Shown: positions 1 to 2,811 of the stretch, piece after piece
Position numbering within the stretch: position 1 is the first letter of the stretch
How the letters are laid out: each line of letters begins with the position of its first letter
Origin: Thermus sp. CCB_US3_UF1
Lineage (GTDB): Bacteria > Deinococcota > Deinococci > Deinococcales > Thermaceae
Direction of reading: 5' to 3'
Assembly: GCF_000236585.1 (NCBI RefSeq)
Contig: NC_017278.1
Coordinates: 1-64,000, forward strand
DNA length: 64,000 nucleotides
Notes under the pieces: generated by a model
What the model saw: the letters and a program-made list of their open reading frames with translations, nothing else
The model's database searches: none
What the model was told of the DNA's origin: nothing
Program-made: the position numbers and the translations under genes

Positions 1-74
1 GTCGTACCTCATCCCGCCCTCCACTTTACCCAACCCCTTGCCGTAGAATGTTCCCCTGGAACTCGGGGGTGGCC

Positions 75-1388
75 TTGACCCACGAAGCCATCTGGCACCA
101 CGTCCTAGAGCACATCCGCCGCAACATCACCGAGGTGGAGTTTCACACTTGGTTTGAGCGCATCCGTCCCCTGGGAGTAAGGGAGGGCGTTCTGGAGCTG
201 GCGGTACCCACCTCCTTCGCCCTGGACTGGATCCGCAAGCACTACGCCGAGCTCATCCAGGAGGCCTTGGGCCTGCTGGGGGCCCAGGCCCCGCGGTTTG
301 AGCTCAAGGTGGTCCCGGGAACCGCCATCCAGGAGGACATCTTCCAGGCAACCCCCTCCCCTGAGCCCGCCCAGCCCCGGCTCAACCCCAAGTACACCTT
401 TGAGAACTTCGTGGTGGGGCCCAACAACTCCATGGCCCATGCCGCGGCGGTAGCGGTGGCCGAGTCCCCGGGCCGGGCCTACAACCCCCTCTTCATCTAC
501 GGGGGGGTGGGGCTGGGGAAGACCCACCTGATGCACGCGGTGGGCCATTCGGTGGCCAAGCGCTTCCCCCACCTCAAGATCGAGTACGTGTCCACGGAAA
601 CCTTCACCAACGAGCTGATCAACGCCATCCGCGAGGACCGGATGGCGGAGTTCCGCGAGCGCTACCGCTCCGTGGACCTCCTCCTGGTGGACGATATCCA
701 GTTCATCGCCGGGAAGGAGCGCACGCAAGAGGAGTTCTTCCACACCTTCAACGCCCTCTACGAGGCCCACAAGCAGATCATCCTCTCCTCCGACCGCCCC
801 CCCAAGGACATCCTGACCCTCGAGGCCCGCCTCAGGAGCCGCTTTGAGTGGGGGCTCATCACCGACATCCAGCCCCCGGACCTGGAAACCCGCATCGCCA
901 TCCTGAAGATGAACGCCGAGCAGCGGGGCCTGCGGGTGAGCGAGGAGGTGCTGGAGTACATCGCCCGCCAGGTGACCTCCAACATCCGCGAGCTGGAAGG
1001 GGCCTTGGTGCGGGTCATCGCCTACGCCTCCTTGAACGGGGTGGAGCTGACCCGGGCCGTGGCCGCCCGGGCCCTTTCCGACATCTTTGCCCCCAAGGAG
1101 GTGGAGGTGGACCCCCAGGAGATCGTGGCCAAGGTGGCGGAGCACTTTGGCCTCAAGCCCGAGGAGCTCCTGGGCAGCGGCCGGCGCAAGGAAGTGGTCC
1201 TGCCCCGGCAGATCGCCATGTTCCTGGTACGGGAGTTCACCCGCGCCTCCTTTCCGGAAATCGGCCAGTTCTTTGGTGGCCGGGACCACACCACGGTGAT
1301 CTACGCCATCCAGAAGGTGCAGGAGCTTTCGGAAAGCGACCGGGAGGTGCAAAGGCTCCTCCGGCAGCTGCGGGAGGCCTTCCTGTGA
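75..1388 (+). CDS. dnaA: Chromosomal replication initiator DnaA
   Basis: DnaA is the AAA+ initiator that binds DnaA boxes and opens oriC. Seen: an N-terminal domain I, a Walker A motif GGVGLGKTH, a Walker B stretch LLVDDIQF, and the C-terminal box-binding signature [12 protein letters not shown]. The frame is open from an ATG at 48, but nothing resembling a ribosome site precedes it. The Thermus protein as I know it begins about ten residues in (xTHEAIW here), so the TTG at 75 is preferred (437 aa); a GTG at 69 is also possible. It lies directly upstream of oriC and dnaN, the usual dnaA-oriC-dnaN order. Binding sites at 1393-1610 are its targets. Confidence 0.96.
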
Positions 1389-1686
1389 ACCCTGTGGATA
1401 ACCTGTGGATAACCCTGTGGATAACCGGGGGGTGCCTGTGGATAACCCTGGGGATAACCTGTGGAAAACCGGGGGGGTTTCGGGGGTTGTGGATAACCCG
1501 GGAGTTATCCACAAGTTATCCACAGGCCAGGGCGGGTTATCCACAGGGGTTTTCCACAGGCACTTTTCCCTCCAGAAGGGCATTTTCCCCCACTTATCCA
1601 CATATCCACAGGCCCTACTACTACGACTACGATCTTTTAAGATCTTTAAAAACCTTTAGTAGTAGCAGTAAAAGGAGGCAGCCACA
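1389..1686. other. oriC: Chromosomal replication origin oriC
   Basis: This 298-bp gap between dnaA and dnaN holds 13 DnaA boxes. Seven read forward (TGTGGATAA at 1393, 1404, 1416, 1437 and 1488; variants TGGGGATAA at 1449 and TGTGGAAAA at 1460). Six read in reverse (TTATCCACA at 1505, 1516, 1537 and 1594; variants at 1550 and 1602). The orientation switches between 1496 and 1505. Then come a GC cluster (1611-1615), a run of CTA/CGA triplets (1615-1632), an A/T-rich stretch (1633-1656) and a mirrored TAG triplet run (1657-1668). The order matches a bacterial origin opening module. T. thermophilus oriC is also known to carry 13 boxes. Confidence 0.96.
1594..1668 (+). promoter_or_regulatory. oriC unwinding module: DnaA boxes, GC cluster, DnaA-trios, AT-rich stretch
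   Basis: Two reverse DnaA boxes (1594-1602, 1602-1610) are followed by GGCCC and then CTA CTA CTA CGA CTA CGA (1615-1632). This is the arrangement of the DnaA-trio element described in Bacillus subtilis, where DnaA is loaded onto one strand to open the origin. The A/T-rich segment 1633-1656 contains a near-palindrome centred on AGATCT. A second trio run, TAG TAG TAG CAG (1657-1668), lies on the far side in opposite orientation, just before the dnaN ribosome site AAAGGAGG (1671-1678). Confidence 0.8.
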
Positions 1687-2811
1687 ATGGACGTAACCCT
1701 TCCCAAAAACCTCTTGGCCGAGCAGATTGCCCTCTTGGAGAGGGTGATCCCCTCCAGAAGCTCCAACCCCATGTTCACCTACCTGGGCCTGGCCCCGCAG
1801 GCCGGCGGCCTGACCCTTTTCGGGAGCAACGGGGAGGTGGACCTCGAGGTCCACCTCCCCGCCCAGGTCCAGGGGGAGGGCCGGTACCTGGTTCCCGCCC
1901 AGCCCTTCTTCCAGCTGGTGCGGAGCCTGCCTGGGGATACCGCGATCCTTCGCTTGGGACTGGACCTGGAGCTCTCCTCGGGGAGTTTCCGCACCCGCTT
2001 GAGCCTGGCCCCCAGCGAGGGGTACCCGGAGCTCATCTTCCCCGAACCCGGGGTTGCCTCCCCCGACTACCCCCTCCAGACCCGCCTGCCGGCGGAGGGC
2101 TTCTTGCGGGCCCTGGTCCACGTGCGCTACGCCGCCAGCAACGAGGAGTACCGGGCCATTTTCCGGGGGGTGCAGCTGGAGTTCTCCCCCCAGGGGGTGC
2201 GGGCCGTGGCCTCCGACGGCTACCGCCTGGCCCTGTACGACCTTCCCCTGCCCCAGCCTTTCCAGCGCAAGGCGGTGGTCCCGGCCCGGAGCGTGGACGA
2301 GGTCATCCGGGTGCTGAAGGGCATGGGGGAGGGGGAGGCGGTGCTGGCCCTGGGGGCAGGTACCCTGGGCCTGACCCTGGGGCAGGAGGGAGGGGGCCGG
2401 CTCCGCCTGGCCGTCCGGCTCATGGAGGGGGAGTTTCCCGATTACGAGCGGGTCATCCCCAAGGAGTTCCCCTTGCGGGCGGGCCTCGAGGTGGAGCCTT
2501 TCCGCGAGGCCCTGCGCCGGGTGAGCGTCCTTTCCGATCGGCAAAACCACCGGGTGGACCTCCTTTTCGGCGAGGGCCACGTCCTCCTGTCCGCCGAAGG
2601 GGACTACGGCAAGGGGCAGGAGGAGCTTCCCGTGCGTCTGGAGGGGACCCCCTTGGCCGTGGCCTACAACGCCCGCTACCTCCTGGAGGCCTTGGGCCCC
2701 CTGAGCGGCCAGGCTGCCCTCCTCCTCTCCGGCCCCACCAGCCCCAGCCTGATCCGCCCCTTGGGGGAGGGGGAGGGGTACCAGGCGGTGGTGGTGCCCC
2801 TCAGGGTGTAA
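1687..2811 (+). CDS. dnaN: DNA polymerase III beta subunit (sliding clamp)
   Basis: The sliding clamp tethers Pol III to DNA. The 374-aa length and the three repeated clamp domains fit the family. The start, MDVTLPKNLL, sits nine bases after a strong ribosome site AAAGGAGG (1671-1678). The C-terminus ends QAVVVPLRV, the usual hydrophobic clamp tail. It follows oriC and precedes eno by 65 bp on the same strand. That gap contains a near-palindrome around 2829-2848, centred on GAAGCGCTTC, without a T-tract, so read-through into eno is possible. Together with dnaA, dnaX and dnaE this window holds most of the replisome core. Confidence 0.96.
   Translation: MDVTLPKNLLAEQIALLERVIPSRSSNPMFTYLGLAPQAGGLTLFGSNGEVDLEVHLPAQVQGEGRYLVPAQPFFQLVRSLPGDTAILRLGLDLELSSGSFRTRLSLAPSEGYPELIFPEPGVASPDYPLQTRLPAEGFLRALVHVRYAASNEEYRAIFRGVQLEFSPQGVRAVASDGYRLALYDLPLPQPFQRKAVVPARSVDEVIRVLKGMGEGEAVLALGAGTLGLTLGQEGGGRLRLAVRLMEGEFPDYERVIPKEFPLRAGLEVEPFREALRRVSVLSDRQNHRVDLLFGEGHVLLSAEGDYGKGQEELPVRLEGTPLAVAYNARYLLEALGPLSGQAALLLSGPTSPSLIRPLGEGEGYQAVVVPLRV

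Follow-up and report, generated by a model that had tools for sequence, protein, structure and literature searches.

Recent primary papers describe as open the question of how the second replicative helicase comes to sit on the strand across from the DnaA filament (PMC10201434, PMC10721633), and the origin region of Thermus sp. CCB_US3_UF1 raises it in a concrete form. On one side of its AT-rich stretch lies a run of triplets resembling the Bacillus DnaA-trios, and on the other side, facing dnaN, a shorter run appears to mirror it. The preliminary description of this locus proposed that such a two-sided arrangement could load DnaA on both strands. Here we ask whether the mirrored run is a second DnaA-trio element, what else it might be, and what it could contribute to origin opening.

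Organization of the origin region

The window analyzed is a 64,000-nucleotide stretch (NC_017278.1, positions 1 to 64,000). It starts with 47 bp, which are followed by dnaA (48–1388, forward strand; 446 aa with matches to Pfam Bac_DnaA at 1e-74, Bac_DnaA_C and DnaA_N), 298 non-coding bases, and dnaN (1687–2811, forward strand), encoding a 374 aa beta clamp with Pfam DNA_pol3_beta domains 1–3. The array of DnaA boxes, the gene context and conservation identify the stretch 1389–1686 as the dnaA-dnaN oriC. A consensus scan of this stretch found no promoter or terminator.

Thirteen DnaA boxes are present in the non-coding stretch at one mismatch or fewer, and their orientation changes once. Seven boxes on the reverse strand, reading TGTGGATAA on the forward strand, make up a left array at 1393–1496 (starts at 1393, 1404, 1416, 1437, 1449, 1460 and 1488), and these are followed by six forward-strand boxes of the TTATCCACA type between 1505 and 1610. 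Four of the six form a right array of TTATCCACA boxes at 1505–1558 (starts at 1505, 1516, 1537 and 1550), and the other two are a trio-proximal tandem pair at 1594–1610, with TTATCCACA at 1594–1602 and ATATCCACA at 1602–1610 overlapping by one base. The offsets between boxes hardly differ among all the Thermus oriCs compared, apart from a single locus (L015) that lacks one box. Measured from the trios, the 13 boxes keep almost the same places in every Thermus genome, with a similar layout across the Deinococcota, and the box spacing therefore seems to be under strong constraint.

The tandem boxes lead into a GC-rich spacer, GGCCC (1611–1615, forward strand), whose last C is also the first base of a run of six triplets, CTA CTA CTA CGA CTA CGA (1615–1632). 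Its trios lie on the lower strand, which reads 3'-GAT GAT GAT GCT GAT GCT-5'. An AT-rich stretch of 24 nt (1633–1656) separates this forward run from the mirrored run, TAG TAG TAG CAG (1657–1668), which is proposed as a trio run of the upper strand, 3'-GAC GAT GAT GAT-5', on the grounds of its conservation and its fit to the base rule of the DnaA pocket. Beyond it are the dnaN Shine-Dalgarno sequence AGGAGG (1673–1678, forward strand), 8 nt ahead of the ATG, and dnaN itself. The preliminary description had placed the order of boxes, spacer and six triplets, and the position of the mirrored run on the dnaN side, exactly to the base.

The forward side has the layout of a basal unwinding system

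A basal unwinding system (BUS) is defined by a DnaA box within 16 bp of at least three trios of the form 3'-NAN-5' (PMC8287927). On the forward side, the boxes at 1594–1610 are 4 bp from three consecutive 3'-GAT trios and the AT-rich stretch at 1633–1656 adjoins the run. The DnaA encoded in the window has a trio-binding pocket; in an alignment to B. subtilis DnaA (8btg) the equivalents of E183, N187, I190, I193, R202 and E228 are all identical. As judged from sequence, the forward side is thus a textbook unwinding element of the B. subtilis type, in agreement with the earlier comparison to the Bacillus DnaA-trio layout. It is already known in kind, since the corresponding system of Deinococcus radiodurans has been shown to be active (PMC8287927).

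The forward run is present in all 24 distinct Thermus-group oriCs that we aligned, 23 from Thermus itself and one from a sister genus within its family. When box, CCC and triplets are combined into one strict pattern, this matches once per genome in 43 of 50 Thermaceae, and its reversed control has no match in the same 50; within the window, the 18-base run is matched once at three mismatches or fewer, with none expected. The fourth trio (1624–1626) has a middle C, as 3'-GCT or 3'-GCC, in 23 of the 24 genomes, and such a nearly fixed non-A trio is unusual relative to the B. subtilis consensus. We also note that one genome (G054) carries the same box-trio module on two contigs (L092 on C334 and L097 on C437), reflecting either duplication or assembly redundancy, and that a survey of the phylum of a Desulfuromonadales genome (L054) yielded too few forward runs to be of use.

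The mirrored run is conserved at related origins

The preliminary description had made its proposal depend on conservation of the second run in related oriCs, and this is borne out: the mirrored run is recognizable in all 24 Thermus-group oriCs, typically 40–47 nt from the end of GGCCC. The match varies in quality, and T. parvatiensis and a near relative have TCG TAA TAG CCG. In the window the 12-base run occurs exactly once, its only near matches being to the forward run on the other strand, and the exact consensus TAGTARNARCAGTAR, where present in a Thermus genome, is found at oriC only. On single sequences the run is moderately unusual, with a borderline median shuffle p of about 0.06 for Thermus, and the case for it therefore comes from conservation. 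Counted by parsimony on the dnaN tree, the mirrored run required 3.0 steps per column and the four adjoining columns 7.25; the Shine-Dalgarno sequence required 3.0, the spacer from there to the ATG 7.0, the forward trios 1.6 and the boxes about 0.18. The mirrored run has fewer steps than the spacer and junction columns taken together (Mann-Whitney p = 3e-5).

Meiothermus and its relatives have a weaker form of the run, and dnaN there begins about 100 bp further on. When 20 non-Thermus Thermaceae were aligned, the columns alternated between a variable base (T8 A7 C2 G1), A (18/19) and G (18/19), such that NAG triplets still follow the AT-rich stretch in spite of the distant dnaN. In more distant Deinococcota (L050, L094, L117) the mirrored run is weak or absent. 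A side observation from this survey is that one Thermus genome has a second dnaN-like gene (L028; G014:C42:253-1296), 49% identical to the dnaN of the window.

Substitutions in both runs follow the base preferences of the DnaA pocket

Cryo-electron microscopy and base-substitution biochemistry on B. subtilis showed that in every trio the first two bases are captured by DnaA and the third is not (PMC10721633). At the first base G is preferred and A tolerated, and the middle base needs an amino group, A or C serving better than G or T. This rule comes from biochemistry outside our data, although the A-to-C pattern had been apparent in the alignment before the rule was brought in. Among the 96 mirrored triplets of the 24 genomes, the first base is G in 74, A in 19 and T in three; the middle base is A in 83 and C in 13, hence A or C in 96/96 with no G or T; and the third base is T in 58, C in 30, A in six and G in two. 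The rule (G or A, A or C, any base) is obeyed by 93/96 triplets in phase and by 28/95 (29%) and 5/96 (5%) in the two shifted phases, figures that owe part of their phase signal to self-alignment of the run, as the alignment was made on the sequences themselves. A trio element calls for at least three in-phase trios that obey the rule, and the mirrored run has them.

The direction of change points the same way. All eight inferred middle-base changes in the mirrored run are between A and C, whereas in neighboring A-majority columns 18 of 96 changes are between A and C, 62 between A and G, and 73 between A and either G or T; the excess over A-to-G/T changes is significant (Fisher p = 9e-6), with the caveat that the counts come from parsimony on a single gene tree (dnaN) and from a run of only three to four triplets. 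The forward run, used as a positive control in the same genomes, likewise shows 8/8 middle-base changes between A and C. The sequences thus support the statement that both runs exist, are conserved and obey one base rule. Conservation of the mirrored run, together with substitutions that keep to the pocket preferences, gives good support at the sequence level to its interpretation as a second trio element, on the opposite strand, and it reads best as a conserved upper-strand variant of the known element. The Thermus oriCs also provide an evolutionary test of the published base-capture rule, in that the middle base has changed only between A and C on both strands.

Alternative explanations for the mirrored run

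The mirrored run lies close to the dnaN start, and one could suppose that only the forward trios act in the origin and that the mirrored run owes its constraint to a place in the dnaN leader, through ribosome binding or mRNA stability, for example. Given its short length (three to four triplets) and its closeness to the dnaN Shine-Dalgarno sequence, it may have such a function in Thermus; in nearly every Thermus genome it lies 11–20 nt upstream of that sequence, and it is about as constrained. However, the NAG triplets persist in Meiothermus and relatives with dnaN some 100 bp away, which argues against a role tied to dnaN translation, and a leader function does not predict changes restricted to A and C at every third base. 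The RNA fold is no better than that of shuffled sequences (z = -0.6), and the exact motif is found nowhere else in Thermus genomes; the notion of a generic Thermus leader motif was rejected because exact matches occur at oriC only. We consider the leader explanation unlikely. Chance is a far poorer account: an AT-rich and purine-rich sequence will produce such triplets at times, as the per-sequence shuffle p of near 0.05–0.1 reflects, but it should not produce low step counts, position-specific types of substitution and occurrence at oriC only, and forward, reversed and complement controls gave no excess. That the run arose in this way is hard to credit.

Two further possibilities assign the constraint to the other strand or to the pairing of both runs. 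TnnT repeats occur in the complement of a trio run, and in Bacillus that strand is proposed to serve the second helicase (PMC10201434); the lower strand of the mirrored run could therefore be what matters, recognized by a helicase-loading protein in the manner of the DnaD element 5'-TnnT-3'. But DnaD is absent from Thermus and its relatives, and when A and C are exchanged on the upper strand, T and G are exchanged on the lower, so that the T of TnnT is lost while the amino-group rule of DnaA is kept; we regard this explanation as quite improbable. Selection for base pairing, with the two runs as arms of an inverted repeat forming a cruciform or hairpin, seems to us very improbable. The runs do form a perfect inverted repeat of 9 nt and a 25 nt arm at 72%, and complementarity within a genome slightly exceeds that of swapped pairs (p = 0.007 for Thermus, p = 0.017 for the other Thermaceae, relatedness being uncontrolled in this comparison). 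Nevertheless, the best registers fall at five different positions whose distances are multiples of three bases, and in no register do more than 2 of 24 species reach 90% pairing; a register that differs between species in three-base steps indicates that the triplet phase is conserved and not a stem. The fold of the DNA is weak (z = -1.8), the 9 nt arms being 33 nt apart, and with the register not conserved a hairpin or cruciform was rejected.

A model for opening and helicase loading

The interpretation that we prefer, a forward BUS together with an upper-strand trio track to which DnaA is looped, the two providing platforms for two helicases, has in our estimation a probability of about 0.6 as a whole. 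DnaA bound to the tandem boxes at 1594–1610 would extend onto the lower-strand trios at 1615–1632 and open the AT-rich stretch in the way known from the BUS of B. subtilis. This filament would grow from the boxes toward dnaN, and a helicase on the lower strand, moving 5' to 3', would travel toward dnaA; the upper strand must then take the other helicase, moving toward dnaN. The mirrored run (1657–1668), at the distal border of the bubble, would act as a second, shorter trio element of the upper strand. After this strand has become single, ATP-DnaA could hold the run with the same two-base pocket, giving a specified DnaA grip in mirror symmetry.

The earlier proposal of two-sided loading stands in part. 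The conserved run fits the base preferences of the pocket; the proposal is weakened by the missing box, as no DnaA box in the correct orientation adjoins the mirrored run at two mismatches or fewer in Thermus. With no box 3' of its trios within 16 bp, the mirrored side is not a second complete unwinding module, and a second BUS on the dnaN side was rejected accordingly. DnaA would instead most likely be handed over by looping from the left array, whose seven boxes have the orientation that suits upper-strand trios. We infer that DnaA could in this way be loaded on both strands, with two head-on filaments, one per strand, holding the bubble open and providing each helicase with a marked platform on which to load; that DnaA binds the mirrored run, that the DNA loops and that helicases are loaded there are all predictions of the model.

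The DnaD domain (PF07261) is absent in 31/31 genomes, in a search that detected the B. subtilis and L. lactis controls, and DciA is present in 31/31 relatives, so the DnaD route of Bacillus is not open to Thermus. With conserved trio tracks on both strands, the placement of the second helicase becomes open to test, since each track could be mutated on its own in a thermophile amenable to genetics. If the model is correct, opposed trio tracks would be a direct sequence solution to bidirectional loading, in the Thermaceae and possibly, independently, in an order of the Bacillota. The literature searched, which excludes Schaper et al. 2000 and the 2016 DnaA-trio paper, yielded no two-sided trio arrangement.

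Possible two-sided designs outside the Thermaceae

A pattern search found some 35 oriC-like modules in the Bacillota, the phylum of Negativicoccus. In the order that contains genome G414, a mirrored TAR/TAG run is present in 6 of 10 oriCs where 1.8 are expected, the motif having been chosen after the sequences were viewed. Outside that order the run is not enriched in 32 Bacillota oriCs (two found, 1.4 expected), and it was rejected as a general feature of the phylum. One two-sided oriC of G414 (L123; G414:C22:34000-34700) has a forward run CTATTACTACTACTA and a mirrored run TAGTAATAATAGTAATAG, with triplets TAG TAA TAA TAG TAA TAG, followed by an inverted box TGTTGATAA.

Inverted DnaA boxes (one mismatch or fewer) lie beyond the AT-rich stretch in 7 of 30 Bacillota oriCs (L123, L124, L126, L128, L129, L130 and L131) with 0.5 expected, and in five of the seven they are 60–62 nt from the first trio; no box in forward orientation was found there in any of the 30. 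In two other Bacillota loci (L133 in G486 and L134 in G327), GATGATGATGG occurs right before the Shine-Dalgarno sequence after the AT stretch, in the opposite reading sense to the trios. Since Bacillota oriCs carry mirrored runs or inverted boxes, two-sided designs may recur in different forms. We put forward only tentatively, as possible rather than probable, the broader proposition that some bacterial origins have two opposed trio tracks, one per strand, that specify head-on DnaA filaments, each marking the strand of one helicase.

Comparison with known origin systems

The Thermus origin is most like the BUS of B. subtilis, with which it has in common the tandem boxes, GC-rich spacer, lower-strand trios and AT-rich stretch, as well as the pocket residues and base preferences of DnaA (PMC6669920, PMC8287927, PMC10721633). 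It differs in having an additional mirrored run of upper-strand trios on the far side of the AT-rich stretch, and in the middle base of trio 4, which in Thermus is nearly always C. Published trios have an adjacent box, whereas the mirrored run does not. The T. thermophilus oriC is likewise described as having clustered and closely spaced boxes, according to Schaper et al. 2000 as cited in PMC6727663.

T. maritima offers a second parallel. There, DnaA bound to remote boxes engages TAG repeats within the opened DUE, and an eTrio of three TAG repeats is essential for opening and is bound via single-strand recruitment (PMC10316083). The resemblance lies in three TAG repeats away from a box-proximal position, and the system sets a precedent for supplying DnaA from non-adjacent boxes; as described in PMC10316083, the TAG repeats and trios of T. 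maritima are on one strand, whereas the second run in Thermus is on the opposite strand, beyond the AT-rich stretch. The Bacillus DnaD element is similar in being a sequence proposed to direct a second helicase to the strand opposite the trios (PMC10201434). That element is the complement of the trios and is bound by DnaD (PMC10201434), whereas Thermus lacks DnaD and has a separate run that fits the DnaA rule.
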